Source of the DNA: Halorubrum sp. CSM-61
Lineage (GTDB): Archaea; Halobacteriota; Halobacteria; Halobacteriales; Haloferacaceae
Length of the DNA: 64,000 nucleotides
Direction: 5' to 3'
NCBI RefSeq assembly: GCF_003781945.1
Contig: NZ_RJJW01000001.1
Location: 391,921 to 455,920, forward strand
Numbering within the stretch: position 1 is the stretch's first letter; each line of letters begins with the position of its first letter. The notes under the pieces were generated by a model that had not been told where the DNA came from, did no database searches, and saw only the letters and a program-made list of their open reading frames with translations. The position numbers and the translations under genes were made by a program. Positions 14,415-56,235 of this stretch are shown here, in pieces.

Positions 14415-15064
14415 GCGTTCGCAGCGCCCTCCGCGCTCGTCCCTCGCTCCGGACGCAGCGCCGACTCACGAGGCTGATGCAGGCCCTCCTCGTCGCCATC
14501 GTCGTCTACGGCGCGGCGTTCGGTCAGCCGAAGGCGATCACCAACGGGGGGCTCGGGCTGTTCGTCACGTTCGTGCCGGCGCTGCTCGAACGCAACTACG
14601 ACATCCCGCTCGACCCGTGGCTCGGCGTCTGGATCACGTCGGCGGTGTTTCTCCACACGCTGGGGTCTGCGTGGTTCTACGCGCAGATCGGGTGGTGGGA
14701 CCACCTGACGCACGCGCTCTCGGCGTCGCTGGTCGCCGGCGCGGGCTACACGACGCTACGCGCGGTCGACCTCCACAGCGATCGGATCCGGATCCCGCCG
14801 CGCTTCGCGTTCGTGTTCATCTTCGTGGTGGTGCTCGCGTTCGGCGTCGTCTGGGAGCTGTTCGAGTTCGCGCTCGACATCGTCGCCGACGAGACGGGGG
14901 TCTCGATGCCGCTGGCCCAGCACGGGCTCGACGACACGGTGCTCGACCTGATGTACAACTCCGTGGGGGCGCTGATCGTGGCGACGTTCGGACAGGCCCA
15001 TCTCTCGGGAGTCGCGGAACGGGTTCGAGAAGGGCTGTACGGGGCGTTAGACGAGCGCTCGTAG
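14411..15064 (+). CDS. Membrane protein, YjdF/DUF2238-like
   Basis: A 217-residue protein with five or six helices. The segment WWDHLTHALSASLVAGAGY and the acidic helix FGVVWELFEFALD recall the DUF2238/YjdF membrane family. Start ATG at 14411 overlaps the upstream stop. Its stop lies 3 nt from the convergent ArsA-type gene. Function unknown; pairing with the upstream membrane protein suggests a joint role. Confidence 0.78.
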   Translation: MSVRSALRARPSLRTQRRLTRLMQALLVAIVVYGAAFGQPKAITNGGLGLFVTFVPALLERNYDIPLDPWLGVWITSAVFLHTLGSAWFYAQIGWWDHLTHALSASLVAGAGYTTLRAVDLHSDRIRIPPRFAFVFIFVVVLAFGVVWELFEFALDIVADETGVSMPLAQHGLDDTVLDLMYNSVGALIVATFGQAHLSGVAERVREGLYGALDERS

Positions 15065-15067
15065 CTC

Positions 15068-16297
15068 TCATCGCAGACACGCGGCCACGACCCGCAGCGC
15101 GGCCTCCCCGCGGACCTCCTTCGCGAGCAGCGGGACGCGCTTCACGTCGCGCCCGCGGAACAGGTCCGTCGCCCGACGCAGTGCCGCCTGCTGGACCTCC
15201 CACCGGCGCGCGCAGAACTCGCAGGTGTCCGGGTTCGGCTCCACGACCCAGTCGGGGTCGATCGCGGGCGCGTTCTCGCCGGTCGCGTCCGATCCGGTCA
15301 CGTCCCCGACGCCCTCCATCACGCGGTTGACGACGAGCGTGTTCACCGGAATCGAGAACTCGTCGAGGCGCGCGACGAGCCGCTCGGACTCGACGACGCT
15401 CATCTCCTCGGGGATCGTCACCACGCGGAAGTCGGTCTTCTCGGGGTCCCGCAGCACGCTCCGGAGGCGCTCGATCCGATCGCGGAGCTCGTCGAGGTCG
15501 GCGGAGGGGTCGGCGTCGTCGTCCCCGCCGCCGAACATCCCCTTGATCCCGTCCATCATCCCGGCAAAGCGGTTGCGGAGCTTCATCACCCGGCCGATCA
15601 TCGAGTCCATGATCTCGGGCAGCTGCAGGAGTCGGAGGGTGTGGCCCGTCGGCGCGGTGTCGACGACGACGCGGTCGAACCGCGGGTCGTCGAGGTACTC
15701 CAGCAGCTGGCGCATCGCGGCCGCCTCGTCGGCGCCGGGCATCGTCCCGCCGAGCAGAGAGCCGAGGCCGGCCTCTTCCCCGTTTTCGACGTCGCCCGCG
15801 GGACCGCCCGCACCGTCCGCGCCGCCCATCATTCCCCCCATCCCGCCCATCGCGTCCCCCATCTCGCCCATCCCGCCGAGGGGGTCGCCATCGGCGCCGA
15901 ACATCCCCTCGTCCATCGCGTCGTCGGGGTCGATCTCGGCGGCGTACAGCGGGATCTCCTCCCGGATGCGCGACGGCTCCGCCGGGATCTCCGTCTCGTA
16001 GGTGTCGGAGAGCGAGTGGGCCGGGTCGGTGGAGACCACCAAGGTGTTCACCCCGCCCGCCGCCGATGCGAGCCCGGTCGCGGCCGCCATCGTCGTCTTC
16101 CCGACGCCGCCCTTCCCGCCGTAGAGGACGTACTCCGGGGCGTCGACGCCTACTGGAAGATCCGTGGCGGCGTCCGTCTCAGTCGGGAGGTCGGGGTCGG
16201 CGTTTTCGGGGTCGCCGTCGGCGTTCCCGTCGCTCTCGTCTCCCTCGGCCTCCGACTCCTCGACGCGATCCACCGGCTCGACGTCGATATCGTCCAT
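15068..16297 (-). CDS. ArsA/Get3 family ATPase
   Basis: The deviant Walker A GGKGGVGKTT (about residues 59-68), the switch STDPAHSLSDTY and DTAPTGHTLRLLQLPEIMD define the ArsA/TRC40/Get3 family, which either energises arsenite export or targets tail-anchored proteins. There is a Gly/Met-rich insert near residues 125-170 (GGMGEMGDAMGGMGGMMGG) and an acidic N-terminus. No arsenite pump gene is adjacent, so a Get3-like role is as likely. One CxxC (CEFCARR) is near the C-terminus. Confidence 0.88.
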   Translation of the reverse strand: MDDIDVEPVDRVEESEAEGDESDGNADGDPENADPDLPTETDAATDLPVGVDAPEYVLYGGKGGVGKTTMAAATGLASAAGGVNTLVVSTDPAHSLSDTYETEIPAEPSRIREEIPLYAAEIDPDDAMDEGMFGADGDPLGGMGEMGDAMGGMGGMMGGADGAGGPAGDVENGEEAGLGSLLGGTMPGADEAAAMRQLLEYLDDPRFDRVVVDTAPTGHTLRLLQLPEIMDSMIGRVMKLRNRFAGMMDGIKGMFGGGDDDADPSADLDELRDRIERLRSVLRDPEKTDFRVVTIPEEMSVVESERLVARLDEFSIPVNTLVVNRVMEGVGDVTGSDATGENAPAIDPDWVVEPNPDTCEFCARRWEVQQAALRRATDLFRGRDVKRVPLLAKEVRGEAALRVVAACLR

Positions 16298-18956: not shown

Positions 18957-20296
18957 TGGCGATGAATCAGATGGAACTGGTCATGGAGCGTCTTCGAAGC
19001 GCTGGTGAGTGTGATCTTCAGGATGGACCGTCGCTGTCGGCGGCGCACTGCCGCCGACGCGACAGTGTCGCCACTCACGACCGCTATCTAAATCGGTGGA
19101 CAGCTACCGGAAGAACCGGTTGTCGAGTGGCTGGTTCGCTGGAATGGACCTACGTACACCAAGCGCTGTCCAAGCGGCCCGCAGCACCATCTCACAGAAC
19201 TCCGTGAACGACCACTGCCAGAGGCGGCGCCCCCCGTGGCGGGGCGCCGCCACGTACTTCCAGTGAAGATACCGCCAGCTGTTCTGGAGCAGCAGGCTCA
19301 CCACAAACATCACCAGCCGTAGCCCAGCGTCCTGAGAACTGGTGAATGCGAGGCTCTGCTTGGCTAATCGGTAGCTCGACTCGATGCCGAAGCGCTTGCT
19401 GTAGTGTTCTCGGGCATCCCGTGGGGTGTCGATAAACGGCGCGTCAGCGGCGTAGCCGTGACGCGCCACCCCGTGTTCGTCGTATCGTCCCTGTTGGTAG
19501 ACGCAGTCGATGAACACAGGGAACGTTACCTTGCCGGCGAGATCGTGTTCGATCTCGCGGCTCCAGCCGCTACTGAGTTCGTCTTGGATCGTTTCACCCC
19601 ACTTGACGATCGGCATCACGTAGGCGTAGTTGTGCGTGGACAACAGCCCAAGACAGGTGCTGTTGTAGAATCCGCGATCGAGATAGACGGCCTTGACGCC
19701 GAGGTCAAGGCCGTCGAGGAGCTCGAGAAACTCACCAAGGACGTCGCTGGTGGTGTCGCCAGCGACAAGCTGGCGCACCGCCAGCGTGTACCGCTTGTTG
19801 CGTACCCGCGCGTACAGCGTCGCGTACGCGTGAAACGTCGTCGTTCCCCGTTTCGCCTGTGAGGAGTACAGCGCTTCCGTTTCGTCTTCATCGCCGTAGT
19901 AGGGGTCGAGGTGGAGGTCTGCACAGACCTCCACCGGTCGATCTGGAAGCGTCTCAAGCGTATCTCGTTGAAGTAGCGTGTCGCCAACCGCCTCAACGGA
20001 GTCAAGTTCGAACTGCTCGGTGAGATGTCCTCGGACGGTGTTGGCGTGTGGCGAGTCCTCGGTCGTTTCGCAGACGTGATTGATCGAGGTCCCGCCGGCG
20101 CTGGCGCCGGCGAGGACCTCGTACAACGTCTCTGTCGTGACCTTGACGTTCTCGTCGAGATCTATCGCAAGCTCTTCGTTGAGGCTGTTGACGACAAAAT
20201 TAAGGAGGTGCTCTTCTTCTATCTCGCTGTCTGCTTCGGTAGCTTCCACACCCTTCCCAAGCAGACACTTTCACTCAAACCCGATGTGATCGACTG
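18920..20296 (-). mobile_element. ISH3-family insertion sequence
   Basis: The element is bounded by 15-bp perfect inverted ends, CAGTCGATCACATCG at 18920 and its complement ending at 20296, enclosing one transposase gene. Length (1377 bp) fits ISH3-type elements. The 5-bp flanks (ACACT and AACCT) do not match, and different broken genes abut each end, so it marks a rearrangement rather than a simple insertion. Confidence 0.8.
19104..20249 (-). CDS. ISH3 family transposase
   Basis: A DDE-type transposase of 381 residues. Catalytic-type segments include VEVCADLHLDPYYGDED, LGVKAVYLDRGFYNS and the C-terminal KRFGIESSYRLAKQSLAFTS, which follow the ISH3 family pattern. The GTG start is at 20249. 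The frame is uninterrupted, so the element may still be active. Confidence 0.88.
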   Translation of the reverse strand: MEATEADSEIEEEHLLNFVVNSLNEELAIDLDENVKVTTETLYEVLAGASAGGTSINHVCETTEDSPHANTVRGHLTEQFELDSVEAVGDTLLQRDTLETLPDRPVEVCADLHLDPYYGDEDETEALYSSQAKRGTTTFHAYATLYARVRNKRYTLAVRQLVAGDTTSDVLGEFLELLDGLDLGVKAVYLDRGFYNSTCLGLLSTHNYAYVMPIVKWGETIQDELSSGWSREIEHDLAGKVTFPVFIDCVYQQGRYDEHGVARHGYAADAPFIDTPRDAREHYSKRFGIESSYRLAKQSLAFTSSQDAGLRLVMFVVSLLLQNSWRYLHWKYVAAPRHGGRRLWQWSFTEFCEMVLRAAWTALGVRRSIPANQPLDNRFFR

Positions 20297-21989: not shown

Positions 21990-22490
21990 TCAGCGATACT
22001 CTTCAGGAAGGACCTCGCCGAAGAACTGAAGCCAGACGCGATACAGCTCGTCCGTTTCATACAATCTGTCGAGATGGATCGGAGGTATCTCTCTTCGAAC
22101 GTCGTGTGACTCAGCTCGCACCCGTTTGACCCGCTCCGTCGACCATTCTCCCGGTTCGATCCCGTTGTCACGGAGCAGCTTTCGCAATGTAACGATCGCA
22201 GTACGGTGGTTCCCATCCGGGAAGAAGTGTTTCCCTACGAGCGCGTGTATCCAGAGCGCGCACTGTTCGGGAAGCGGCCGGTCAGTTGGGAACTCCTCGA
22301 GAACCCGTTCGAGATCGCCGTTTCTCACTCGCCAGATCTCCTTTCGCTGTTCAAGGAACGACTCGTCGTGTGGATTGTCGTAGTGATGGCCGTCTGCTCT
22401 CAGAAATTGTGTATTCCGGAATTTGAAGTTCTCCGGCTCGATCGACGAAAGATCCGTGATACGAGGGGCTGGATCCGTCGAGTCTCCCAT
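21990..22490 (-). CDS. Fic/Doc family protein
   Basis: The Fic core motif is present as HALVGKHFFPDGNHRT (residues 82-97), close to the canonical HPFxxGNGR; the second glycine is replaced by histidine. Fic proteins transfer AMP or phosphate to target proteins and often act as toxins. The length (166 aa) suits a minimal Fic domain. No (S/T)xxxE(G/N) inhibitory helix was identified with confidence. The neighbouring small acidic gene is the only candidate partner. Confidence 0.8.
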   Translation of the reverse strand: MGDSTDPAPRITDLSSIEPENFKFRNTQFLRADGHHYDNPHDESFLEQRKEIWRVRNGDLERVLEEFPTDRPLPEQCALWIHALVGKHFFPDGNHRTAIVTLRKLLRDNGIEPGEWSTERVKRVRAESHDVRREIPPIHLDRLYETDELYRVWLQFFGEVLPEEYR

Positions 22491-24168: not shown

Positions 24169-25413
24169 ATGGGAATGTTCGAGCGGGACACGGATATTTA
24201 TCGTGACCGGGACGCCCTTCGTGAGGACTACCAACCCGAGCAGCTGGTCGGTCGAGACGAGGAACTCAACACATATCAGACGACCCTACAGCCAGTTATT
24301 AACGGTGAGCAACCGAACAACGTCTTTCTCTACGGTAAGACAGGTGTCGGGAAGACAGCCGCAACGAGATATCTTCTTGATCATCTTCAGTCCGATGCGG
24401 CCGCGTACGACGATATTGATCTCTCGGTGGTTATGCTCAATTGCGACGGCCTGACATCGAGCTATCAGATCGCGACCCGCTTAGTTAACGAGTTTCGGGA
24501 CGACACCGATCAGATCAGCACGACCGGGTATCCACGAGCTGCCGTCTACGATATGCTCTGGAACGAGTTAGACACTAATGGGGGGACAATTCTGATCGTC
24601 CTTGACGAGGTCGATCACATCGAGGATGACTCCATCCTCTATCAGTTGCCGCGAGCTCGAGCGAATGGTAATCTTGAGACAGCCAAGACTGGGATTATTG
24701 GTATCTCGAACGACTTTTCATTTCGTGAGGACCTCTCCCCGAAGGTACGATCTTCACTGTGTGAGGAGGAGATCCACTTTCCTGCTTATGACGCCACAGA
24801 ACTACAGCAGATTCTCCAGCAACGAGCCGATGTCGCGTTTCACAAGGGCGTTCTTGAGGAAGGCGTCATCCGCCTCTGCGCTGCCTATGGGGCAAAGGAT
24901 GCCGGCGACGCTAGGCAATCACTCGACCTACTGATGAAAGCAGGAGATATCGCTCGCGATGACTCTGCTGAACACGTAATCGATGAACACGTTCGTCAGG
25001 GCCGGACATCACTCGAACGGGGGCGAATTCGTGAAGGAATTGGGGGCCTCACCCAGCATGGGCACCTCGTGTTGTATGCCGTGTTGACGCTCGATCGGCA
25101 GGGGAAGACTCCGGTTCGCTCGCGGGATGTTCGACCCCGATATACGAGTATGGCCGAGCGGGCAGGGATCAACCCGCTCGTTACACGCCGGATGCGTGAT
25201 CATCTTAGCGAACTCATTATGCTCGGGATTCTTGATGTCACCGAGCGCAATGAGGGTCGCCGCGGTGGAACCTACCGCGAGTATTCTGTGTCAATGGACC
25301 CAGAGCTAATCATCTCTGCGATGGCTGATACTGTCGAACTCGTTGGAATCCACGAGTCGATAGAGAAGTTGCTTGAGCGGGAATCTACGTCAACCCTCCA
25401 AGACTATCAGTAG
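24169..25413 (+). CDS. orc1: Orc1/Cdc6 family replication initiator
   Basis: An AAA+ initiator of 414 residues. Walker A is LYGKTGVGKTAATRYLL (about 55-71), Walker B is ILIVLDEVDHI, and sensor 1 is IGISNDFSF. The C-terminal winged helix (KTPVRSRDVRPRYTSMAERA, then LITRRMRDHL-like sequence) recognises origin boxes. The origin lies directly upstream, and two more repeat-like sites follow the gene (25435 and 25497). Context suggests the initiator of an integrated plasmid or a secondary chromosomal origin. Confidence 0.92.
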   Translation: MGMFERDTDIYRDRDALREDYQPEQLVGRDEELNTYQTTLQPVINGEQPNNVFLYGKTGVGKTAATRYLLDHLQSDAAAYDDIDLSVVMLNCDGLTSSYQIATRLVNEFRDDTDQISTTGYPRAAVYDMLWNELDTNGGTILIVLDEVDHIEDDSILYQLPRARANGNLETAKTGIIGISNDFSFREDLSPKVRSSLCEEEIHFPAYDATELQQILQQRADVAFHKGVLEEGVIRLCAAYGAKDAGDARQSLDLLMKAGDIARDDSAEHVIDEHVRQGRTSLERGRIREGIGGLTQHGHLVLYAVLTLDRQGKTPVRSRDVRPRYTSMAERAGINPLVTRRMRDHLSELIMLGILDVTERNEGRRGGTYREYSVSMDPELIISAMADTVELVGIHESIEKLLERESTSTLQDYQ

Positions 25414-27048: not shown

Positions 27049-28644
27049 TCAGATCAGCCGACTTGGCGAGCGTATCAGCCCTGGTTTGTCCTGACGTTTC
27101 GCCGTCAGTGAGGCTGCTACCAGTGCTACCGCAGAGAGAACAACGTGGGTTTCGACGTTGTTCTCTTTGCGGGCGCGAACGCGATCGAGGCCGGTAAAGG
27201 ACTTCAGCCGGGAGAAGACGCGCTCGACACCTGCGCGCAGGTGTCGATGCATTCGTTCCTTGATCGCCTGGAAAATGTACGTCTCCTCGACACTGCCAAC
27301 CTCAACGCCGTACTCGGACAGTTGTTTCTGTGGAAGTCGCTCAAGTGCGTCGTATGGACTGTCTATCTCGTCTCCGTGTTTCTTGAACAACCGCTTGATC
27401 TCCTTCTTGATCGCTTTCAGCGGCTTCGATCGGCGTGGGTTGATGACCGTCAGCAACGGGCTTGAGAGCCGTTGCTGACTCTGGTCTCTATTCGCTTGGC
27501 TGTCGAAACCAGCATCAGCCAGCACTGCCTGAATGTCCTCGAAGTCGTAGCGGTCGTCGAACTCCTCGATCAGCGGCGTGAACGCTTTACTGTCGTGCCT
27601 GCTGCCGGTCTCCATCGTGATGGCGACCGGCAGTTCGCTCGCCGCATCAACCACCAAGAACACCTTGTACCCGTAGAATTTTCCCTCGTGATAGCCCCAG
27701 CTAGCTCCTTCGACGTCGCCGTCTTCGATCTCTTCGCGGGTGTTTGCCCAGGCGGCGATGTGCGTTCCATCGATCACGATGAACTCACCAGCGTGATCGT
27801 GTTCAGCGAGTACTTCGCTACACATCGACTGAAGGCAGTCACGGAGTTCCTCGGGTTGGAGCTCATCGAAGGCACGCCAGAGGGATGTCCCGTCGGGGAC
27901 ATCCTCTGGCTTGGTGTAGTCGAGCGCTTCACGAAGGGAGTAATTCCGACGAATACGGCGTTCGAGAGCTTCGAACGAGTCGCCCTCGAACTGCCGCAGG
28001 ACAAGTGCCGCTGCGCGTTCAGGCGGGATGGACTGAATGTCTGAAACGGCTACCGAGAGGAAGGTAGCGAGCAACTCATCGCGGTAGAGGAAGCCGTCGT
28101 CCGCCGGTTCCGGCGGACTGACGGCTGATGGCTGGTCGGTTTCGCGCTGGGAGAGCTGGGCGTCCCGTCGGGACGGCCAGCGGTGGGTGTAGACGGTTGT
28201 CTCATTGATCTCGCTAGCGTGAACCTCCTGGTCATCAGCAAGGGCAGCGAGCGCACGATAACAAGGACGCTCAAGCCGATCGTTTGCCTCAGCGGCAGTA
28301 AGTCCGGAGGGACGGTTGAATGCGAGGTGTTTGAGGGTGGCTTTGGTAGATTCCTTACGGTGGAAGACGGCGATGCCGTCATCCACCTTGGGTCGCCAGA
28401 AGCCGTCATGGGTTGATCGGTGACCAACGACGTGTTTGCTGGCGACGTAGCTACCGTGATGGTTGAGCGAGGTGTAGAAGGGGGCTTGGGAAGCTATCTG
28501 ATCGATATACCACGCTGGCACCTCGGTGCCAGCGCGGAGTTGCTCCTTCGAAGCGACTTCTCCGTGGGTGCGGAGGAACTCACGAACAGCAGTTTTATGA
28601 GAAGTGGCTGTGTTCTCATTCGTGTCGGATCTGGTGCTATACAT
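27049..28644 (-). CDS. DDE transposase (IS4/IS5-superfamily type)
   Basis: A 531-residue transposase with DDE-type segments: EFIVIDGTHIAAWANTREEI, VQAVLADAGFDSQ-like sequence and RAGVERVFSRLKSFTGLDRV, followed by a C-terminal helix (VVLSAVALVAASLTAKRQ). The N-terminal 190 residues include a helix-turn-helix-like region. Element ends could not be located with confidence, so the IS family is uncertain. The frame is intact. Confidence 0.82.
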   Translation of the reverse strand: MYSTRSDTNENTATSHKTAVREFLRTHGEVASKEQLRAGTEVPAWYIDQIASQAPFYTSLNHHGSYVASKHVVGHRSTHDGFWRPKVDDGIAVFHRKESTKATLKHLAFNRPSGLTAAEANDRLERPCYRALAALADDQEVHASEINETTVYTHRWPSRRDAQLSQRETDQPSAVSPPEPADDGFLYRDELLATFLSVAVSDIQSIPPERAAALVLRQFEGDSFEALERRIRRNYSLREALDYTKPEDVPDGTSLWRAFDELQPEELRDCLQSMCSEVLAEHDHAGEFIVIDGTHIAAWANTREEIEDGDVEGASWGYHEGKFYGYKVFLVVDAASELPVAITMETGSRHDSKAFTPLIEEFDDRYDFEDIQAVLADAGFDSQANRDQSQQRLSSPLLTVINPRRSKPLKAIKKEIKRLFKKHGDEIDSPYDALERLPQKQLSEYGVEVGSVEETYIFQAIKERMHRHLRAGVERVFSRLKSFTGLDRVRARKENNVETHVVLSAVALVAASLTAKRQDKPGLIRSPSRLI

Positions 28645-31624: not shown

Positions 31625-32146
31625 CTAGTCATCTGCTCTGGTCTGAATATGTTCTATCAACTCATCTCTTGTACCAGTTCCAAGGCGTGCAACCCCGCGT
31701 CGTTGATAGAGCAAAACTGTATGATCCTGTTCCAATGATTCAATATTAATTGAATTTAGAGCACTCCGAGATGTCCCGATACACCATATTGAGTTTCGCT
31801 TCGCATTTTTGACTAACCGATCCCAGTTCATCACGATTACTTCCTCGAAAGTGTCGGCTGTAAAGAGTAGGATGACTACGTCCAAGTCTTCGAGCCTAGA
31901 CGAAAGGGAATCTGTAAAGCGATCCACTTCTTTTCTGAAGTCTAATGGTGGAGCTCTTTCGACTTGGCTTTCACCGCGCACGTATCCGTGATCTTCGGAT
32001 AAAATATGGAGTTCGATTTCACAATAGGAAGACAGCGCATCAACAATCGTCTTAACTGAGAGAAATGATCCTCCGAAGTATTTAGAGTAGGTCTTAGCTG
32101 ATTCATTCGTTGTCATTGAACCCTCGGTGAATATCGCGGCTCTCAT
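31625..32146 (-). CDS. Unknown protein at the end of the PglZ/DUF499 operon
   Basis: A 173-residue protein beginning MRAAIFTEGSMTTNESAKTY, with SKYFGGSFLSVKTIVDALSS and a Rossmann-like strand-helix alternation (DLDVVILLFTADTFEEVIVM). No family recognised. It lies 159 nt after the 129-aa gene on the same strand and may be part of the defence operon or its own unit. Confidence 0.65.
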   Translation of the reverse strand: MRAAIFTEGSMTTNESAKTYSKYFGGSFLSVKTIVDALSSYCEIELHILSEDHGYVRGESQVERAPPLDFRKEVDRFTDSLSSRLEDLDVVILLFTADTFEEVIVMNWDRLVKNAKRNSIWCIGTSRSALNSINIESLEQDHTVLLYQRRGVARLGTGTRDELIEHIQTRADD

Positions 32147-32305
32147 TGCGCGTATATTTGAACCCCTTTTTTAAATCAGTTCCCGAATTTCTGGTTGTGG
32201 ATCAGTGATAGAGGGATCAATAAAACATTACAACTTCTGAAATGTAACCCTGATATTCGTCCGTATAGATGCGTAGACATTGATCACGGAGAGATATATG
32301 TGGAC

Positions 32306-32695
32306 TTATTTGCGAGCAACGGAATGAGTCGCAGAAATCGGTTTAGGTTCCTCAACAAAGAGTTGGCCAACGTTCAGATACACGCCACCTTCACTCCGTT
32401 CAATCCTGATACGAAACGCATTATCGTCTACGATCGTTCCTTGTAGGTGGAATTGTACCGCATCCATTGATCGGATTGAACGGGACTTTCGGAGTACCTG
32501 CCGCAGCACTCTGATGATCTCTCCACGTGAATCTTGTGTCGCATTATATAATAAGTCGTCCAAACCTATCACGGTAACTGGACAGTCTACGGTCTGATCT
32601 GCCTCAATTTCTCGGAAGAACTCCAATGCAGTGAGTTCATTATCTGTATCCGAAACCAGTTCAGTCACAATATTATACCCTTGGTGTAGTGTCAT
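32306..32695 (-). CDS. Unknown protein in the PglZ/DUF499/DUF1156 operon
   Basis: A 129-residue protein (VTVIGLDDLLYNATQDSRGE, then IIRVLRQVLRKSRSIRSMDA) that starts 2 nt after the methyltransferase stop, so it is surely co-translated with it. By position it replaces the small DUF3780-type accessory of related systems, but I see no sequence proof. Function unknown. Confidence 0.7.
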   Translation of the reverse strand: MTLHQGYNIVTELVSDTDNELTALEFFREIEADQTVDCPVTVIGLDDLLYNATQDSRGEIIRVLRQVLRKSRSIRSMDAVQFHLQGTIVDDNAFRIRIERSEGGVYLNVGQLFVEEPKPISATHSVARK

Positions 32696-32697
32696 GG

Positions 32698-35235
32698 TTA
32701 GAACTGGCTAAGCCCCATATTCATCACCTGTTCATAACGGTCGTCTCCTGTCACATCAGCCATGAAATCAGCTAATTCTTCCAAGTCTTCACTCTTCCAC
32801 TCCTTCAGATATTCCCTGGTGTTTTGATCCGTCTTATAGAGGTGGTAGAGGAAATGAACTTTATCAATATCCAGCAATTCATTACCTCCCTTCCCGTTAT
32901 TATTTAACTTTGCCTCGATGAATGTAATTCGCTCGTCTGCTGTAACCGGATGTTTCCGATCACGGGATCCCTTCGCTAGTTTCTCGTCTTCCAAATCACC
33001 GACGTTTAGATTCTTAGCAAGAAGTTGCTTGTTGAGGTTATCATATTCTTCCGGGCCGCGCTGTAGAAATGCTGCATATGCCTTAGTAACAGAGTCAGTG
33101 CTTGCTGGGAGGTTAACTGAGCCCTCAAGAACCTGTTCAATAATGGAGTCTACTGTGTCAAGCGCTTCATCGATTCCTGCCTGATCTCCTTCAGAGTAGA
33201 CTTTCGGGAAATGCCGAGAGTAGTAGTACATACACTTTCCACGAAGGATGACGCCAAGGTCGGCCTTTGAGAGATTCTCATGACGTTCTTGCTCTTTGGT
33301 AGCCATCTCCTGTAATTCGAAGAATAGATTTTGTCGAAGTTCAGTAAGTGTGATTTCTTCATCTGACTGTTCCTTATTAGCATAAATGAGGATGTCATAT
33401 TCTGCGTTGTCAAGATCTGATATATGCGTACTGTTGTCTCTATCCGATTGTACAGGATATGCTCCGGTAATTGTAAATCCGCTATTGATGATGGATTCAA
33501 GAATGACTGACCACGCTTCGTTCTCGTTGTGGTGGTACGTGAATACCATTTCACCATCAGGTTTGAGAACTCTGTGACACTCAGAGAAAACGTTAGATAA
33601 TGATTCGATAAAATACTCTTCGTCCTTCCCAACTTGGCTGTTTGCGACAATTTCTCGGGCTTTCGGTGAGAGCTTAGGTTCGAACTCTTCGTACTCAGAT
33701 TGTAGGCACTTCTGTAACCAGACGTAGAAGTAGTCAGCTAATTCCGAGTATTGAACGTTGTCATAGTACGGTGGGTCAGTAATGACATAATCCACACTTT
33801 CATCCTCTAGATCAATTCGCTCAGATGTTTTACAGTAGAGTCCCTGGAGGGAATCCTCATCAACTGACTCATTCAGGATCTCGTGTTTAACGACCTCCCC
33901 GCTTTTTTCATTCTTAATCTTCTCAAACGGCTCGTTACAGTACTTCTTAGCGTCATTTAGCTTTCCGAAGGCGTTTCTGAGGGAACCAAGAGTTCCGTGT
34001 TCGTTGAGGGGGTTGGGTTCAACGGGTTGTGTTTTGGGGACATAGGCGTGGCGTTCGAATACATCTAGTCCCTTTTGATTTCCTACATGCCACCGACAAA
34101 GTTTACAATTGAAATTCAGCATATTGGAGGCTGTGAGAATGAGGAATTCGCGGAGGTTCTGGTCTTCGACTTCCAAAGCACGCTTGAATATTGTGCCGTG
34201 GACAGCGAGCTGACGGTCGGTAAATAATTCGCGGAAGTGCGTGTAGTTGTAATTATGGAGAGATCTCGTCTTGTCACCGTCGGGAATTTGCTGGTCCGGA
34301 ATTACGAGGTCGTTCTGTTCAACCAAGGCTTCCAATTCACTGGCCTTTTCAGCGTCGGTTTTGTCGAATTCTTTGAACCGTTTTTCTCCGTGTGGATCGA
34401 CATATTGTAGGGCATAGTACTCAAATTCTGGTTTCTCATTAAGTCTGTTAAGAGTCTCTTTGATGTCGTGCTTATGCCCGTTACTACAGGTGTATTTACC
34501 GTATCCACTATTCCCATCGTTCGGATCAAATGTAGTATTACAACTGGGACAAGTCTCTTCGTCTTTAACTTCTCTGTTTAATTCGATAATCCGGTTTGAG
34601 CAACTTTGATTAGGACAGTATACAGCTGCGGGAGAGTTTGACTTTTTATACCCTAGTTTGTAATTTTTGAACAATCTGACTTCTTCATTACAGGTTAGAC
34701 AGGGAATTGTCTGTGTTTGGAAAGAATAGAGAATTGGAGATTCTTGTCCAGTGTTAGGATCTATGGTGATGAAATAGTCCCTGAGTTCGCTTTTCACATC
34801 CGATATAAGGGATTCAAATTCTTTCTCAAGTTTCTCTGTATTAACTTCGTCAATTGATTTCTTTGTAATAAACCACGCAACCGGGTTAAGTTCGTATCCG
34901 ATTGTCTCAGCTCCAAGACGATTTAATTCGACGTGCGTAACTCCGCCACCCGTGAATGGATCAAGGATGGTGGTATCGCTATCAATCTTCTCACTATCTG
35001 TGTTTAGATATAGTCCATCATGGTTCCCTGAATCACGTTCTTGGATGATATCGGTGTTTGTCACAGAATCGTCTGTGAGAGCCGCAAGACCAAGGATCCT
35101 AAACGTTGAACCGGGACGGCGTGCCCACCATTTGTGTAAGGAGTAAACCGGACGGTATACGTCGCGGCGGTAGGATTCTTTCTCAGCCAATTTGTCCATC
35201 ATGTCTAACGGTAATTTATCCCAGGTTTCTGTCAT
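32698..35235 (-). CDS. DUF1156-type adenine-specific DNA methyltransferase
   Basis: An 845-residue DNA methyltransferase. The N-terminal DUF1156-like part (YRPVYSLHKWWARRPGSTFR) leads to the SAM motif DPFTGGGVTHVELNRLG near residue 92. Three zinc-ribbon CxxC groups follow (PCLTCNE, CPNQSCSN, CPSCNTTF). The catalytic motif VDYVITDPPYYDNVQYSEL lies near residue 500 and fits N6-adenine chemistry. It sits 2 nt after the PglZ gene. In BREX and related systems such enzymes mark self DNA; here that role is inferred. Confidence 0.87.
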   Translation of the reverse strand: MTETWDKLPLDMMDKLAEKESYRRDVYRPVYSLHKWWARRPGSTFRILGLAALTDDSVTNTDIIQERDSGNHDGLYLNTDSEKIDSDTTILDPFTGGGVTHVELNRLGAETIGYELNPVAWFITKKSIDEVNTEKLEKEFESLISDVKSELRDYFITIDPNTGQESPILYSFQTQTIPCLTCNEEVRLFKNYKLGYKKSNSPAAVYCPNQSCSNRIIELNREVKDEETCPSCNTTFDPNDGNSGYGKYTCSNGHKHDIKETLNRLNEKPEFEYYALQYVDPHGEKRFKEFDKTDAEKASELEALVEQNDLVIPDQQIPDGDKTRSLHNYNYTHFRELFTDRQLAVHGTIFKRALEVEDQNLREFLILTASNMLNFNCKLCRWHVGNQKGLDVFERHAYVPKTQPVEPNPLNEHGTLGSLRNAFGKLNDAKKYCNEPFEKIKNEKSGEVVKHEILNESVDEDSLQGLYCKTSERIDLEDESVDYVITDPPYYDNVQYSELADYFYVWLQKCLQSEYEEFEPKLSPKAREIVANSQVGKDEEYFIESLSNVFSECHRVLKPDGEMVFTYHHNENEAWSVILESIINSGFTITGAYPVQSDRDNSTHISDLDNAEYDILIYANKEQSDEEITLTELRQNLFFELQEMATKEQERHENLSKADLGVILRGKCMYYYSRHFPKVYSEGDQAGIDEALDTVDSIIEQVLEGSVNLPASTDSVTKAYAAFLQRGPEEYDNLNKQLLAKNLNVGDLEDEKLAKGSRDRKHPVTADERITFIEAKLNNNGKGGNELLDIDKVHFLYHLYKTDQNTREYLKEWKSEDLEELADFMADVTGDDRYEQVMNMGLSQF

Positions 35236-35237
35236 AG

Positions 35238-36170
35238 TTAGTTACCTCCAGTCGTATCGATCTGTAGTACTGGCGTTATACACTCGGGAAGACTGAGACC
35301 CCCGTGCATGATTTTCTTTGTCGCCCCGCGTTTCGTCCATTTGTGATGTCCTCTCACGACGTAGTGGCCGCCTGCTCTTTTAATAATATTAGCATTCTCA
35401 AGCACCCGATATGCCTGTCCGTTCCCGATTTCACGGAACCGACTACTGAATTTGCTTGATAACGAGGATTCCTCTTCATCAGATAAGGAGTATGGGGAGT
35501 TCCCGAGGTGATTCACGTAGCCGTGATCGCTCGTAATGAGAAACTCAGAGTGGACACTTTCCTGAATTACGTCTTCAAGAAGACTCTTCACACCTTCGTA
35601 AATCTCCTCTACTTCCTCCATAGAGTAATTCCCTTTCAGAGCACCTTCGAGTCGCTGATCTGGGTGGCGCGTCCACACGAATGCCGGATCTGTACTCGGG
35701 AGCTGTGGGACATCTCGATCGCCGATAAAGCGGAAGTTATCCCGTGACACTGCTGATGGACTCTGTGCGTCGAACCATTCACGGCAAATGAACTGTGTTT
35801 CACTTGGCAACCCCTCGATCGGGGCCCACGTGAACGAGATGTCCCAATCATGTTCAGACTGGAGCTCCTGTTCTAATCGGAACCCTTCACGGAAACTAAG
35901 AGCGTCCATGATCACCCCACACCCATTTTCGATTGATGTTATAGGGTGATCTCCCATCGCATTAATGAGCTCATCGTAGAGATCAGGGTATAGCTTCGTC
36001 AATTCGTATTCTAATAACCGAGTCTGGTACTCTGATTCAGCAAGGTTCCGATCGCTAAGTGCGTCCTCATTCCCCCAAATCCGTCTAAGACACTCAAATA
36101 CCCCGTCAAGAATGTCCTCTTCGTGGAGGAGGGCATTAAATTCCTCTTCGGCGTATAATTCATTACTCAT
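35238..36170 (-). CDS. pglZ: PglZ domain protein (alkaline-phosphatase fold)
   Basis: A 310-residue protein with the PglZ landmarks: CGVIMDALSFREGF (metal-binding Asp, near residue 88), EFLITSDHGYVNH (near 220) and the C-terminal HGGLSLPECITPVL. PglZ proteins are core parts of BREX and Pgl phage defence. The protein is shorter than many PglZs. I chose the start MSNELYAEEEF, which overlaps the ATPase stop by 8 nt; a longer start would overlap by 56 nt. Confidence 0.85.
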   Translation of the reverse strand: MSNELYAEEEFNALLHEEDILDGVFECLRRIWGNEDALSDRNLAESEYQTRLLEYELTKLYPDLYDELINAMGDHPITSIENGCGVIMDALSFREGFRLEQELQSEHDWDISFTWAPIEGLPSETQFICREWFDAQSPSAVSRDNFRFIGDRDVPQLPSTDPAFVWTRHPDQRLEGALKGNYSMEEVEEIYEGVKSLLEDVIQESVHSEFLITSDHGYVNHLGNSPYSLSDEEESSLSSKFSSRFREIGNGQAYRVLENANIIKRAGGHYVVRGHHKWTKRGATKKIMHGGLSLPECITPVLQIDTTGGN

Positions 36171-38967
36171 TCTTGTCCACCTGCATTTTGACCGAGAGTG
36201 ATGCCTTCTTAGGGACATTTAGGTCCCACAGTAGGGCTAGGAACGAACTGTGATCCAAGGGTTCGTCCGGGGTAATCTCGAACGTTTCGTCAAGGCTCAC
36301 CCGCTTATCCAGAGCGTCGGCGTTGATCCCGTATTCACCAAGGTCATCGCTGGTGAGCACCCCCTCAATCGTGATTGTCGCTTCATGGATATCCCACCCC
36401 TGTGTCTCTCGTTCAATTTGATCGATCAGATCTGGTTTATTATCCGCGTCAATCGTCCCCATGACCGGATAGGGACGAATTTTCGGGCCCTCGGGTTTCT
36501 CAAGTCCAAACTCGTCTAAGAGTTGATCAACAGTCGCGCCTTCAACCGACACTTCCCCTTCGACAACGCCTGAAGCATCAAATTCGAACCCACATTCACA
36601 TGATGTGCTTTTCAGCTCTTCTCCGCACTGCGGGCAGCTGAACGCTGTCTTTGGCGTGGCAGTTTTCCCGCTGCCGGAAGTCTCAGTCTCTGTCATAGTC
36701 CCACCTGAGGTCGTCGTCTCAGAGCTACCCTCGATGTCGCTGCCAGAAGTGTCTACGGTGATCGTATTGGTTTCTTCTTCGTCTTTTTCGTTGTCATCTT
36801 TGCTGACGTACTGCTGATGAACAAGGTTTGTGTCGTTTCCAAGGCTCCGGACTCGTTCTTCGAAGTACCCACCAACTTTAATCACACCACCTTGACAAAG
36901 CGACTTGATTGCTTCCTCCAACTCTGACTCTTCTGTAAGCGTTGCGTGTGTAGTCTCTCGGTAGAAGTCATTACGGAGATGTTCATACTGTATCCCACTC
37001 GCACCTTCGTCTTTCACCGCATTCTTGACCTCTGATCGAAGTTGACTGGGATCCGGTTTGACGACGCTAACCGTTGCGTCGTAGAAGTCAACGCCTGGAC
37101 CAGTGGGCAGGGCCTGGGGGAATAGCCCACGTTCTGTCGATGTGTGAACGGTTCCGAACTTGTCTTTGACGCGATCTCGGAGGTTCTGGTAGTTCTGGTC
37201 GTGGATTTCTTCGAACCCTTCGGGTAGGACCTCTTCCTCCCTTTTGAGTTGTTCCCCCGCCACGACTTTTCGGGCGAGTTGCCGAATACCTGTGTTCGAG
37301 TCGATGCCTGCGAGTTTTTCGGGGGTAACCAACACGAGTGTGTTGTTGAACTCACGGTTCTGACCGGTGGTGAGCTCTTCAAACACTTCGTCGTAATTCT
37401 GCTTAGCTGCGAGTGAAACGACGATTTTGAACGTCTTGTTGTCCGGAATATCCTGTTCGGTGTTCACCGGATCGAGTATGTACACGTTGTTTCGGCCATC
37501 GAACAGGTCTTCCTGAATCAGAGACTCTGTCCGATGGATGGCATCATGCTTGTGGATATCCTCGGCTTTCTTTTCGATGCGAGCTGCAGGGTTTTCCTCA
37601 ACATCGAACGCGTATTCACCATTGATTCGGTGGATGTGCCACGCATGTCCGTAGACGTCTTCGGTGAATGTTTGGATGATGCGGTGTGCGTTGATTCCTT
37701 TCCGCATGACACCCATCAGCATCTCACGTTTGTTTGCGCCTTCTTCGCCGGCACGTGCGAGGCTGTGTAGGAGGGTGATGTTAATTAGTTCCTCAATGAA
37801 CTCATCGAATGTCCCGTCGGATTTTTGAAGGCGGTTGTAGTCGTTGATGTACTTCCCGACCAGTTCGTTATCGATATACTGGAACCGATCAGTGTACTTG
37901 TGGACATCAACGTTCCCGGTGAGGATGAGGTCTGTCTCGGAGTAGTTGTCGCTGAGGATTTCTGTGAGGAATCGTAGAAGCCCACGGGCGTCCGAGCTGG
38001 TGCGTTGCTCGGAGTACTTCTCCATTAGGAGTTCTAAGGTGAGCGGATGGAACGGGTAGTACCGTTCAATCCGTCTTTCCATGTCGTGGTAATCCTCCAG
38101 TTCGATCTGATCATTCTGCCGGTAGACATCTGTGTATTCCTTCGCAAGTGAAGACACGCCGTCTACATCTGTTACCTCTCCAATAAGTCGGTGGAGAATA
38201 AATTCGATTTTCTCGTCTCGTCGGGACCCGAGATCGTGTGTGAACGGGTTGGTTCGCTGCGTAATGGCTTGGACGTCTTCGTTTTCGTAGAGGAGGGACA
38301 CGAAGACGCTGAGTCGGGTGTCGTCGCGCCCTGCGGCTTCGAGGAGGTTCTGAAGGAATGCGAGGTTATCATCCCGGTAGTCCTCTCGTTCCATCATCCC
38401 GTACCAGCGTTCGAACTCGTCAAGAAGGACGAGGGCTGGTTCGCCGTCCAGCGTGTCGCGGATTTGATGAACTGTGGGGAGGTCTGTTCCACCGACCCAT
38501 TCGTCGATGCCGAGGTAATCGCCGACAGCTTCGGAGAGACGGTTGTAGTCTTTTTCCAGATTGAACATCTGGAGTGCGGCCGTCTTCGTTTGAGTGGGGA
38601 TATCTGCGTCAATTCCTTGCTGGTCAACCCATGCTTGGCCGAGTTCCGGCGAGTTGAAAAGGTGGTAAATGACAAGCTCAATGTGGCTTTTCCCGCTTCC
38701 GTAGCCACCGCCGACGATCTGTCCCCCCTCGGAGAAGTCAGCGTCACCGTTTAGATTCCGCGCGGTGTTTCTGATGATTGTAGAGAGCGTGTCTGTTGGG
38801 TACGTGATTTCCAGGATACGTTCTGCGTCCTGTTCTGGGGACTCACGATCATCGTAGAGATTGTAGAGACTGACTTCGTCCAGTAACCCGGTAGAGTCAA
38901 TCGTCCCGTCATCTCGAAGGATTTCATCGCTCGGGGTAATTCGTGCGGAGATGGGCGTGTCTGTCAT
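36163..38967 (-). CDS. DUF499/BrxC-like P-loop ATPase
   Basis: A 934-residue ATPase. Walker A is GGGYGSGKSH (86-95), Walker B is PALVLLDEFERWYG, matching DUF499 and BrxC/PglY ATPases of phage-defence systems. A low-complexity Ser/Thr linker (ETTTSGGTMTETETSGSG) precedes a zinc ribbon (CPQCGEELKSTSCECGFEF) and a C-terminal domain. Its start overlaps the stop of the 55-aa gene (ATGA) and its end overlaps pglZ, so the operon is tightly coupled. Confidence 0.85.
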   Translation of the reverse strand: MTDTPISARITPSDEILRDDGTIDSTGLLDEVSLYNLYDDRESPEQDAERILEITYPTDTLSTIIRNTARNLNGDADFSEGGQIVGGGYGSGKSHIELVIYHLFNSPELGQAWVDQQGIDADIPTQTKTAALQMFNLEKDYNRLSEAVGDYLGIDEWVGGTDLPTVHQIRDTLDGEPALVLLDEFERWYGMMEREDYRDDNLAFLQNLLEAAGRDDTRLSVFVSLLYENEDVQAITQRTNPFTHDLGSRRDEKIEFILHRLIGEVTDVDGVSSLAKEYTDVYRQNDQIELEDYHDMERRIERYYPFHPLTLELLMEKYSEQRTSSDARGLLRFLTEILSDNYSETDLILTGNVDVHKYTDRFQYIDNELVGKYINDYNRLQKSDGTFDEFIEELINITLLHSLARAGEEGANKREMLMGVMRKGINAHRIIQTFTEDVYGHAWHIHRINGEYAFDVEENPAARIEKKAEDIHKHDAIHRTESLIQEDLFDGRNNVYILDPVNTEQDIPDNKTFKIVVSLAAKQNYDEVFEELTTGQNREFNNTLVLVTPEKLAGIDSNTGIRQLARKVVAGEQLKREEEVLPEGFEEIHDQNYQNLRDRVKDKFGTVHTSTERGLFPQALPTGPGVDFYDATVSVVKPDPSQLRSEVKNAVKDEGASGIQYEHLRNDFYRETTHATLTEESELEEAIKSLCQGGVIKVGGYFEERVRSLGNDTNLVHQQYVSKDDNEKDEEETNTITVDTSGSDIEGSSETTTSGGTMTETETSGSGKTATPKTAFSCPQCGEELKSTSCECGFEFDASGVVEGEVSVEGATVDQLLDEFGLEKPEGPKIRPYPVMGTIDADNKPDLIDQIERETQGWDIHEATITIEGVLTSDDLGEYGINADALDKRVSLDETFEITPDEPLDHSSFLALLWDLNVPKKASLSVKMQVDKNE

Positions 38968-39131
38968 TCTTTGATTTTCTCCATCAAATCATTCTTGTCA
39001 TCGATCCAGTCAGCACATTCGAGGAGATGGGCGATCGCTTCATCGTAGGTAAGCCCATCTTCGGCTTTGTAGCGTCGAAGATCGTCTCGTGTTAGCTTCT
39101 TAACGCTGATTGATGTCTCGCCGTCCGTCAT
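38964..39131 (-). CDS. 55-aa ribbon-helix-helix-like protein, first gene of defence operon
   Basis: MTDGETSISVKKLTRDDLRR, then YKAEDGLTYDEAIAHLLE. The strand-helix-helix layout with SISVKKLTRDDL resembles RHH antitoxin/repressor proteins. It is the first gene after the promoter and overlaps the ATPase start, so autoregulation of the operon is plausible (inference). Confidence 0.7.
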   Translation of the reverse strand: MTDGETSISVKKLTRDDLRRYKAEDGLTYDEAIAHLLECADWIDDKNDLMEKIKE

Positions 39132-39154
39132 ATTAACTGATTGTTACCACGAAC

Positions 39155-39165
39155 GCGTTATATAG
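39155..39165 (-). promoter_or_regulatory. Promoter of the PglZ/DUF499 operon
   Basis: On the minus strand CTATATAACG lies about 27-34 nt before the ATG at 39131. This spacing predicts a nearly leaderless transcript, common in haloarchaea. Confidence 0.6.
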
Positions 39166-39442
39166 GTTCGGTGGATAGATGATTCTTATAATTTCTATAG
39201 AAATATAGATCTGTGCGTTAAACATCCGGTGAGAGATCGCGTTAGGTATCTCGGAGCCATTCACTCATCAGCAGAGTCCTCGATCCTGTATCGATCTAAG
39301 TTGTCCATTACCCGGTTGATACTTCGGGGAGACACACAGTCGCTTCGCAGCCTTCCACTGTGAGATATTCTCTTTTTAAACGCATTGAGAGAACCGTGCG
39401 AATCTCATCCATCTGGTCACTTGAGACTAACTCACCATCGTC

Positions 39443-44095: not shown

Positions 44096-45460
44096 CTACC
44101 AATTAATACCAAAGTGAATCTGTTTCACGTTGGCATACACACCTCGTGTAAAGTCGTTCCAGTCGGCGATCTGAAATCGCTGTGCTGTATATTCGTGTGG
44201 ATCTTCTGGCTGGTCCCAGTCGCGCAGGAAAGCACGTAATCTGGAGTAATTTGAGATAGGGGCGGCACCATCAATACTGAATCTGTTCTCCAAAAGTTCT
44301 CGCTTCCCGTAAAACGGGTTCGCACAAATAGCACCATCAATACTAGCTTCAGATTCAATGTCAAGGTCAACAGTTCTAGTTGTACGCTCCACGAGATCCA
44401 CAGGAATGTCGTCAGGGCTTGGGAGTCCCTGGGTATCGATCTCTACACCCTTCGCTGTGCTGAGTCTCATTTTACTCTGCTCAGAAAACTCAACTAATGG
44501 CCGAACATCAACCGGCTGACCGTCAATTAGGAAGTTCACTGTTAAATGTCGATACCCAGGTTCCGAAGTGAACGGTGCCGCGTAGATGAGTACGCTTGAT
44601 TCAGGGTATTCGACATCAAGATCAGAAATAAGCACCGCTTGATCATGGTCGTACAGTTTTAACTCATAACCAGAGTCCTCTACCTCCAAGTAGCGACTTT
44701 CACGGTTGCGAAGGTTTGCTACGAAGTTCTCATAGCCGCTACCGATCCAAGCCCCGTTTGACTGGTTGATTGTGAAATGGCAGTCCGGTACGGACAGACC
44801 AAATATACCCTCTAATACCGAGAACACGTGTTCCGCACGCGCCTCGGAGATATAATCAAGCTGTGCTACTACCCTGTAGGGGTTATTCGGAAAATAATGT
44901 GGCGTGAATAAACATAATTCAGATATGTGCCCATCAGGGCATTCAATAAAATAATTTGAGGGCTCACCTTCTGAATCGGGGATCCTCAGTAGCCTCTCGT
45001 CGTCATCTTTGGAGTTCCCATGAACTTGATCTCTATAATGAATCTGTACTTCGTGGCCGTTGAGGTATCTCACCTCTGTTTGTCTCCGAACCGGGAATAG
45101 CGGTTCCTCAATTTTCCTATGTTCGTAGCTTAGCAGTTCTTCTGTGGATTCAACTATGATTGCCAGTTGTGACTTCCCGTCGATTTCTAGAATGTCTGTA
45201 GAAAAATCTGGCACAGGCTCCACGACATGACTAAGAACATCAGAGACGGACCGAGCTATCTCATCAGTGGATCCGATATCTTCCAGCTCGCCTGGCCGCC
45301 CATGAGAGTCTTCTCGGACTCCCAGCACAATAGAACCTCCCGCAGCGTTAGACATTGCGGCGATCTCTTTCGCAACCTTACGGGGGGCAGCTTCTTTTGA
45401 TTTGTATTCAATCCTCTCTCCTTCCGGTTTTCCCCTCCTGATTTCCTCTTCCAGATCCAT
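44096..45460 (-). CDS. Schlafen/AlbA_2-domain protein
   Basis: A 454-residue protein whose first 140 residues match the AlbA_2 (Schlafen) fold: GERIEYKSKEAAPRKVAKEI, then AAMSNAAGGSIVLGVRED. AlbA_2 proteins bind nucleic acids or nucleotides, and several act in RNA cleavage or regulation. The C-terminal 300 residues are unknown. Island location is consistent with a defence function. Confidence 0.8.
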   Translation of the reverse strand: MDLEEEIRRGKPEGERIEYKSKEAAPRKVAKEIAAMSNAAGGSIVLGVREDSHGRPGELEDIGSTDEIARSVSDVLSHVVEPVPDFSTDILEIDGKSQLAIIVESTEELLSYEHRKIEEPLFPVRRQTEVRYLNGHEVQIHYRDQVHGNSKDDDERLLRIPDSEGEPSNYFIECPDGHISELCLFTPHYFPNNPYRVVAQLDYISEARAEHVFSVLEGIFGLSVPDCHFTINQSNGAWIGSGYENFVANLRNRESRYLEVEDSGYELKLYDHDQAVLISDLDVEYPESSVLIYAAPFTSEPGYRHLTVNFLIDGQPVDVRPLVEFSEQSKMRLSTAKGVEIDTQGLPSPDDIPVDLVERTTRTVDLDIESEASIDGAICANPFYGKRELLENRFSIDGAAPISNYSRLRAFLRDWDQPEDPHEYTAQRFQIADWNDFTRGVYANVKQIHFGINW

Positions 45461-45658: not shown

Positions 45659-46678
45659 TTGATAAGCGACGGAGCGGCGTTCGAAGACGACCACCTTCCA
45701 GACCCGATTGTCGGCCGGAATAGCCACATGAACGAGGTCACCGACACCCTCGCGCCGATCGAAGACGGTCAGCGCGCCGAGAATTGCTTTCTCTTTGGTC
45801 CCTCCGGCGCTGGGAAGACGACCGTCGCGAGGGCCGTCGTTCGCGAGCTCTGCCACGAGGTGCTTGACGTCCCGTACGCCTGCGTGAATTGCTGGTGGAA
45901 CTACACCCGGAACGCCGTCCTCGAACGACTTTCTCGCGACTTCGTCGGCGCCGCAGTCTCACTCTTCGCGTCGATGTCGACCCTACTCGATCGCGTCCAT
46001 CGTGACTTCAACGAGTCGGGTGTGATAATCCTCGACGAGATCGACCAGCTGCGCGAAACCGATCTGCTCTACGACCTCCACGAGTTCCGCGGGCTCTCGT
46101 GAATCGGCATCGCAAACGATGAGGTCGACCTGCTCGCCGACCTCGACGAGCGTGTTCGCTTTCGCATCTCGGTCGGCTACCGGGTCCGGTTCGACCGGTA
46201 CGGCGAGGACACGATCGGGGAGATACTGGATCGACGGGCTCGTGAGGGACTCGGACCGAACGCCGCGAGCGACGAGGTGTTCGAGACGATCGCGCGGCTC
46301 GCCGACGGCGACGCACGCATGGGCATCACGACGCTCTGGGTGGCGGCGCAGAAGGCGAGCAGCAAGGGGCTGTCGAACATCCCGAGGCGACTCGTTGAGG
46401 ACTCGATCTCTGAGGCGGAGCTGGAGAACGCGCGGAAGACGTTCAGCAAGCTCAACCATCATCAGCGCGTACTGTACGGAGTACTCGAAGAGAACGGACC
46501 GCTCATCCAAAAAGAGTTGTACGCGAGATATACGGAGGAACACGATGACCCAGTGACGCTACGATACCTCCGTGAGAACCACCTTCCCAAACTGGAGCAC
46601 TACAATCTCGTCAACATCGAATCCACAAACGGGACGAAGCTGTACACACTGCTGGAACCTCAATTGCTATCTGCCTGA
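45659..46678 (+). pseudogene. Orc1/Cdc6 family ATPase with in-frame stop
   Basis: Walker A is LFGPSGAGKTTVARAVV, Walker B is VIILDEIDQL. The frame stops at TGA 46100-46102 (HEFRGLS-stop-IGIANDEVDL) exactly in sensor 1 and then continues in the same frame to 46678 with the lid and winged helix (HQRVLYGVLEENGPLIQKEL). The start is unclear; the best candidate is TTG 45659. At about 340 codons it is short. A nonsense mutation in a plasmid initiator is likely. Confidence 0.8.
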
Positions 46679-55234: not shown

Positions 55235-56235
55235 CGCTCTTGTGTAGCACATTGTTGATTTCAGAGAGTGGCTTTGACGGCGTGTTTGAGCGCTTTTCGT
55301 CCGGGTTTGCGGTAGAGTTCTCGTCTGAGTTGGAACGCTCGGAGATACTGTGTGAGGCGATTTTTTGAGATGCCTCGATGCGGCGAGAGCCACCGTCGCG
55401 CCAGCGACGCGTGGCTCTCGCAGGTGTTCACGTGGACCGTCTCGTCGGCGTACTCACCGTCTCCGTGAACGACGTATTCGCGGTCGAATTGCTCATCTTC
55501 ATCAAGCGGATCGTACGCGCAAAATCCGTCGGTATAGATCGTGAGAGGCTCCTGCTGGCGGTCAGCCAGCAGGAGCCGGATCGTCGATTCGTCTGCGGAT
55601 TTCGCCGGCACAACGTACCGTTGCTTGGTGCCACGATCCACGAGAACGAACACGGGCGGTTTGTCTTGATCATACGTTCCGCGCCCGCGTCGAGAGAGGC
55701 CGCGAGAGCGCGACCACTGGTCGCGCTCGCGGCCTTTCAAGCCGGCAGAGACGTAGAACTCGTCAATTTCGACCGGACCACGGAGATCGAGTGACGGCGC
55801 GTCGAGCGCTTCAGCGAAGCGCTCGACACGCCTGTGAATCGTTTTGTAGGTGACCTCGATTTCGCACTGTAACTGCCTGAGACTCGTGTTAAACCGCAAA
55901 AACGCGTAGATCGAAAACAGCCACTTGCGGAGTGCGATCTTCGAGTGAGCGAAGATTGTGCCGGTCTTATCGTTGAACGTGCGGCCGCAATCCTTACAGA
56001 GATACCGCTGAAACTGCCCGTAGCTGCCGTTTCTGACCGTTCGGTCAGAACGGCAGCGAGGACAGGAAACGCCGTCACGCCAGCGAACCTGCTGTAACAG
56101 GTCCGCTGCGACCGATTCCGACCCAAACACATCCAGCGGAATCATTCGTGTCGGACACCGCTGACGCGGTGTCCTTGTCCTCTTCGACTCCACAGCGACA
56201 GCTCAGCAGTATCAACAATCTCCTACAGAAGAGCG
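55235..56235 (-). mobile_element. IS1595-family insertion sequence with intact target duplication
   Basis: A 1001-bp element with inverted ends CGCTCTTGTGTAGCACATTG and CGCTCTTCTGTAGGAGATTG (outer ends). It is flanked by perfect 8-bp duplications TACTTCGA at 55227-55234 and 56236-56243. The duplication size fits IS1595. The intact duplication indicates a direct and fairly recent insertion just downstream of the 56248 regulator gene. Confidence 0.92.
55261..56145 (-). CDS. IS1595 family (ISXO2-like) transposase
   Basis: A 294-residue transposase: an N-terminal zinc ribbon (CPRCRSDRTVRNG...CKDCGRTF), a helical part, then the ISXO2-like catalytic domain (GPVEIDEFYVSAGLKGRERD, TIYTDGFCAYDPL, VNTCESHASLARRWLSPHRG). 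I chose the start MIPLDVFGSES; a start 16 codons upstream is possible. Intact frame. Confidence 0.87.
   Translation of the reverse strand: MIPLDVFGSESVAADLLQQVRWRDGVSCPRCRSDRTVRNGSYGQFQRYLCKDCGRTFNDKTGTIFAHSKIALRKWLFSIYAFLRFNTSLRQLQCEIEVTYKTIHRRVERFAEALDAPSLDLRGPVEIDEFYVSAGLKGRERDQWSRSRGLSRRGRGTYDQDKPPVFVLVDRGTKQRYVVPAKSADESTIRLLLADRQQEPLTIYTDGFCAYDPLDEDEQFDREYVVHGDGEYADETVHVNTCESHASLARRWLSPHRGISKNRLTQYLRAFQLRRELYRKPGRKALKHAVKATL

Follow-up and report, generated by a model that had tools for sequence, protein, structure and literature searches.

Type-3 BR (BREX-related) systems were described in January 2026 by Rakesh and Krishnan and are present in 569 taxa, of which 134 are archaea. They are made up of an ATPase, a methyltransferase, a helicase, a standalone PglZ and, usually, an iSTAND gene, and the helicase, which is of the BrxHII type, is a core part of the system (PMC12839542). 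The window analysed here is a stretch of 64,000 nucleotides from the 3.7 Mb haloarchaeal genome of Halorubrum sp. CSM-61. It contains a compact operon that probably represents a pared-down Type-3 BR antiviral system. PADLOC named no complete system at this cassette. Searching the main text of the Type-3 BR description gave no mention of helicase-less loci (PMC12839542).

The six open reading frames of the operon region are all present in the ORF listing, on the minus strand (Table 1). The longest frame for PglZ runs from 36218 to 35238 and would encode 326 aa; alignment of its relatives places the conserved start at Met17, position 36170, so that the ATPase and PglZ genes overlap by 8 nt. The leader and ATPase genes overlap by 4 nt, and gaps of 2 nt separate PglZ from the methyltransferase gene and the latter from p129. 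A preliminary description of this DNA had claimed a tightly coupled operon, and from the leader to p129 this is what is found. The TATA-box-like sequence is a candidate promoter, and would fit a leaderless haloarchaeal transcript. The RHH-like leader gene in that description is real, but it was found in only four cassettes among those examined. The Halosimplex cassette (L067) has an orthologue of 55 aa that likewise overlaps the ATPase gene by 4 nt, L041 and L042 each have a short RHH-like ORF ahead of the DUF499 gene, and none was found upstream of the remaining cassettes examined. The leader is probably an autoregulator of the operon and an optional part of it.

Table 1. Features of the cassette and its immediate surroundings, with positions numbered from the first nucleotide of the window.
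Feature	Position	Strand	Basis
TATA-box-like cctatataacg	39156..39166	-	Read in the sequence, ~30 nt ahead of the RHH start codon
RHH-like leader gene, 55 aa	38964..39131	-	RHH_10 E 0.028, below cut-off
DUF499 AAA+ ATPase, 934 aa	36163..38967	-	DUF499 above Pfam cut-off
PglZ, standalone, 310 aa from Met17	35238..36170	-	Start by alignment with relatives
DUF1156 DNA methyltransferase, 845 aa	32698..35235	-	N6_N4_Mtase and DUF1156 matches
p129, 129 aa	32306..32695	-	Profile search, downstream of the methyltransferase
173-aa ORF	31625..32146	-	Starts 159 nt downstream of the p129 gene

The ATPase scores 41.5 bits against DUF499 (Pfam cut-off 23) and has a Walker A motif (GGGYGSGKSH), a Walker B motif (VLLDEFE) and a C-terminal zinc ribbon. 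It had been labelled a BrxC/DUF499 protein, of which the second half holds and the first does not, the match to HmaC being 3.7e-13 and that to BrxC E 0.019. The methyltransferase was correctly named from the start. It scores 26.9 bits against DUF1156 (cut-off 24) and 3.6e-14 against N6_N4_Mtase, matches HmaB at 1.4e-41, and has motif I (DPFTGGG), a Cys-rich insert and motif IV (DPPYYDN) in that order. As a single sequence, PglZ reaches 15.1 bits against the Pfam PglZ family, under the cut-off of 25, and at best 22.4 bits against the NCBIfam BREX PglZ models, under the cut-off of 140. A profile built from 29 relatives matches the BREX PglZ 9nv3 at E 1.5e-7, and also PorX. The AlphaFold2 model (pLDDT 81) resembles PorX with a Z of 16.8 and BREX PglZ with a Z of 14.4, the next-best match being 7.8. 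The modelled structure thus confirms the PglZ fold, and the original identification of this protein stands.

With Type-3 BR systems the haloarchaeal cassette shares a DUF499 ATPase, a DUF1156 methyltransferase with a Cys-rich insert, a short standalone PglZ with no fused domains, and a small gene after the methyltransferase. It differs in having no BrxHII-type helicase, in the Thr, Cys or Ser that replaces the second-metal histidine of PglZ, and in p129, which is shorter than the 169-aa gene of relatives L086 and L111 and not significantly similar to it in a profile comparison. Since the ATPase, methyltransferase and PglZ features are present and the helicase is not, the cassette is a variant related to Type-3 BR rather than a full member. 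The Hma (Type-1 BR, HmaABC) systems share the HmaB-like methyltransferase and the HmaC-like ATPase, whereas the cassette is without the HmaA helicase-nuclease and has PglZ and p129. BREX types 1-6 have in common with it the PglZ fold and an AAA+ ATPase plus a methyltransferase, but the ATPase here is DUF499 and not BrxC, the PglZ has no N-terminal domains, and no BrxL, BrxA, PglW or helicase is recognised in the operon. This last point bears out the preliminary description, which had proposed a reduced subtype; the operon is indeed a reduced one of PglZ, ATPase and methyltransferase, although it is closest to Type-3 BR minus the helicase and is not a reduced BREX. The PorX response regulator shares the PglZ domain fold, and differs in its CheY receiver domain, absent from the window PglZ, and in its genomic setting.

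Profile searches identified DUF499, PglZ, methyltransferase and p129 genes, with order and strand conserved, at 36 distinct haloarchaeal loci including the window, so the operon is not a chance arrangement. The co-occurrence of the ATPase and PglZ elsewhere had been named beforehand as a test, and is consistent across these loci. The Walker A GKSH and the acidic pair of Walker B are present in 36/36, as are DPPY and DPFxGGG of the methyltransferase; the DUF499 gene of L066 is interrupted, the single such gene in a single locus among the 36. Relatives of the PglZ are found in 30 of the 391 sampled genomes of the class and in 22 of 86 genera. About half of these form clade A, with 50-75% identity, and the rest form clade B, at approximately 27-31%; between the two clades PglZ identity is about 27%. 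There is no constant fifth gene in the cassette neighbourhoods. DNA similarity to the Halosimplex aquaticum copy, in which PglZ is 92% identical, extends in three pieces from 32306 to 39214 and not beyond, which indicates that the exchanged unit is the RHH gene plus the four genes. The cassettes are located on plasmids and islands. On viral contigs, 29 stretches matched a pattern and none was confirmed, and a search for the ATPase in phage records gave no match. The interpretation favoured here, with rather modest confidence, is that of a mobile, minimal, RM-like haloarchaeal defence cassette, closest to Type-3 BR without its helicase.

Within haloarchaeal flanks of about 6-10 kb, no comparable BrxHII-type helicase was found using queries that recover the positives; their sole match, with E values from 1e-15 to 1e-17, was an ORF of 446 aa in Haloarcula japonica. 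None of 16 clade A genomes has an SNF2 match in the cassette locus. There is no Helicase_C match within the window, the nearest on the same contig being more than 120 kb from it. Unrelated helicases are found near some cassettes, for example a PbeA-like one in L070 and a PDC-S28-like one in L031. Outside the haloarchaea, where relatives came from a genome scan, a BrxHII-type helicase follows the methyltransferase and a small gene at four loci. In Methanoperedens (L085) the order is DUF499, PglZ, methyltransferase, p126 and a helicase that is a BrxHII match (PDLC02500, 1.3e-125). L111, from the class of L085, and L086, from Kiritimatiellae, have DUF499, PglZ, methyltransferase, the 169-aa gene and helicase; in L086, PglZ is followed by an additional ORF6N/PDC-S05 gene. 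The fourth, L117, has DUF499, methyltransferase, a 204-aa gene and helicase, and a PglZ signal between DUF499 and the methyltransferase; by eye, its 204-aa gene (14891-15505) is TIR-like. Loci L115 and L116 reach contig edges and were left out of the helicase counts. No BrxHII-type helicase is near the ANME-2 cassette (L077). In a FastTree tree of the methyltransferase and DUF499, rooted on L086 and L111, clade B is outside the group formed by clade A, Methanoperedens and ANME-2 (support 1.0), which implies either several losses of the helicase or one loss followed by a regain in Methanoperedens.

It could be argued that the cassette is a complete Type-3 BR system whose helicase is provided in trans, by an SNF2-type host helicase not linked to it, and 21 of 30 whole carrier genomes do contain at least one match to the BrxHI/BrxHII model with an E of 1e-20 or lower. 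This is unlikely, however, as the other 9 have no match at that threshold. In addition, the only strong helicase match in the host genome of the window is a 621-aa protein on another contig; several other carriers have similar proteins of 589-660 aa, and this points to a general SNF2 helicase.

The PorX of F. johnsoniae holds Zn1 via D237, T271, D414 and H415, and Zn2 via D360, H364 and H499 (PMC10951265). The metal site of the haloarchaeal PglZ was assigned from sequence alignment, the model itself holding no metal. Six of the seven metal-site positions, D105, T141, D187, D231, H232 and H305, are invariant in 36/36 haloarchaeal loci. The seventh, position 183, corresponds to the second-metal histidine and is Thr in 20, Cys in 10 and Ser in 6. 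This position is His in BREX PglZ and in canonical Type-3 BR PglZ, as well as in L086, L111 and L115, and Thr in Methanoperedens L085 and ANME-2 L077; the presence of Thr in these last two as well means that replacement of the histidine is not linked to loss of the helicase. When aligned by way of PorX, T141 corresponds to T538, and H305 to H741, in the E. fergusonii BREX PglZ, which is a metal-dependent nuclease; T538A abolished its activity and H741A shifted its activity toward nicking (PMC11974810). These mutants suggest that the members of the window PglZ family may be nickases. With the usual His absent from the second metal site, PglZ may hold one metal tightly and act as a nickase.

The missing helicase and the altered second metal site of PglZ in 36/36 loci would also fit a cassette that had lost its effector function and was kept for DNA modification or as a self-methylating addiction module. 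This is improbable, given that the six metal-site residues, including the catalytic Thr, are invariant across clades so divergent in PglZ, and that the reading frames are intact, whereas decay would be the expected fate of a dead effector. The cassette may have a modification-only or regulatory role. The least credible alternative is a signalling defence in which the substrate of PglZ is not invader DNA but a cyclic or linear oligonucleotide signal: PorX, the closest fold, and BREX PglZ do cleave oligonucleotides (PMC10951265, PMC11974810), but neither a nucleotide cyclase nor a sensor is consistently found next to the cassette, and BREX PglZ cuts dsDNA as well (PMC11974810).

The 129-aa protein had been put forward as a possible accessory. 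It does belong to the system, but as a constant fourth core gene, since its profile places it downstream of the methyltransferase at all of the haloarchaeal loci, and likewise in ANME-2 and Methanoperedens. It occupies the place where Type-3 BR systems have the small iSTAND gene, and is without a Walker A motif. The p129 model has a pLDDT of 89, and the structural neighbours listed are nearly all AAA+ or other P-loop domains, with Z values no higher than 4.6 and so within background; comparison of the sequence with solved structures gave nothing significant. The BrxB structure is absent among these structural matches, which is not evidence against a likeness to BrxB. The 204-aa gene of L117 was left out of the iSTAND comparison. 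From its position and predicted fold, our guess is that p129 could be a small iSTAND-like partner. In ANME-2 L077, p129 (15620-15996) is interrupted at residue 100 by an in-frame TGA, and ORFs of 400 and 306 aa are present between PglZ and the methyltransferase; this copy may be decaying.

In a minimal RM-like defence cassette, the DUF1156 methyltransferase would label self DNA by modifying it at a specific site. Assembled on DNA, the DUF499 ATPase and p129 would couple the sensing of unmarked incoming DNA to ATP hydrolysis, and PglZ would be the effector, nicking or cutting unmarked DNA without a dedicated helicase. Where present, the RHH leader may autoregulate the operon. No experiment on any member of the cassette was found in the literature. 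A more tentative possibility, and a doubtful one at this stage, is that of helicase-independent BREX-related restriction, for which the ATPase, methyltransferase, p129 and a PglZ nickase biased toward one metal would be sufficient, and which would be widespread in haloarchaea, with the helicase lost in more than one lineage. The cassette would be a very small PglZ-based system in which the roles of ATPase, methyltransferase and PglZ are testable without a helicase. It would bear on the identity of the effector in BREX-like defence, PglZ being retained where the helicase is gone, and a sharp prediction for biochemistry follows from the altered PglZ metal site.

Among the carriers is Halorubrum lacusprofundi, which has a clade B cassette on plasmid pHLAC01 (L034, 8899-15396). 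The laboratory strain without pHLAC01 is virus-sensitive, for which the authors favour CRISPR as the cause (PMC10544981). In clade B loci L054, L055, L056, L059 and L081, a gene of approximately 284-290 aa is often found downstream of p129; after the H. lacusprofundi cassette this gene is an adenine methylase. The same loci often also have a downstream pair of genes encoding about 450-490 and 840-850 aa, partly broken in L054 and L056.

The suggestion that the 173-aa gene is an accessory of the system did not survive. It is absent even from the Halosimplex copy with the 92% identical PglZ, homology to which ends at 32306, and its eight sampled homologues are all in genomes without a scored cassette. 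The protein has a weak IcmF-related match, and its small haloarchaeal family is represented in 9 of 243 genomes.

The operon is inside a low-GC, transposase-bearing stretch of the window. GC content drops from approximately 0.70 to 0.51 near position 18000, and is about 0.43-0.58 between 18000 and 64000. In this stretch, a Pfam match marks a transposase gene at 27049-28644, and inspection by eye gave further ones at 19104-20249, 55261-56193 and 60419-61783. Roughly 5 kb upstream of the cassette is a Schlafen AlbA_2 protein (44096-45460; PF04326, 2.4e-12); Schlafen-family genes have been linked to BREX and BR loci (PMC12839542). An AAA ATPase frame at 45659-46678 is apparently broken into ORFs 45659-46102 and 46277-46678, and is possibly an Orc1/Cdc6-like gene; an apparently intact one is at 24169-25413. 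A Fic/DOC-like protein is encoded at 21990-22490, its 23.2 bits being just under the Pfam cut-off of 24.
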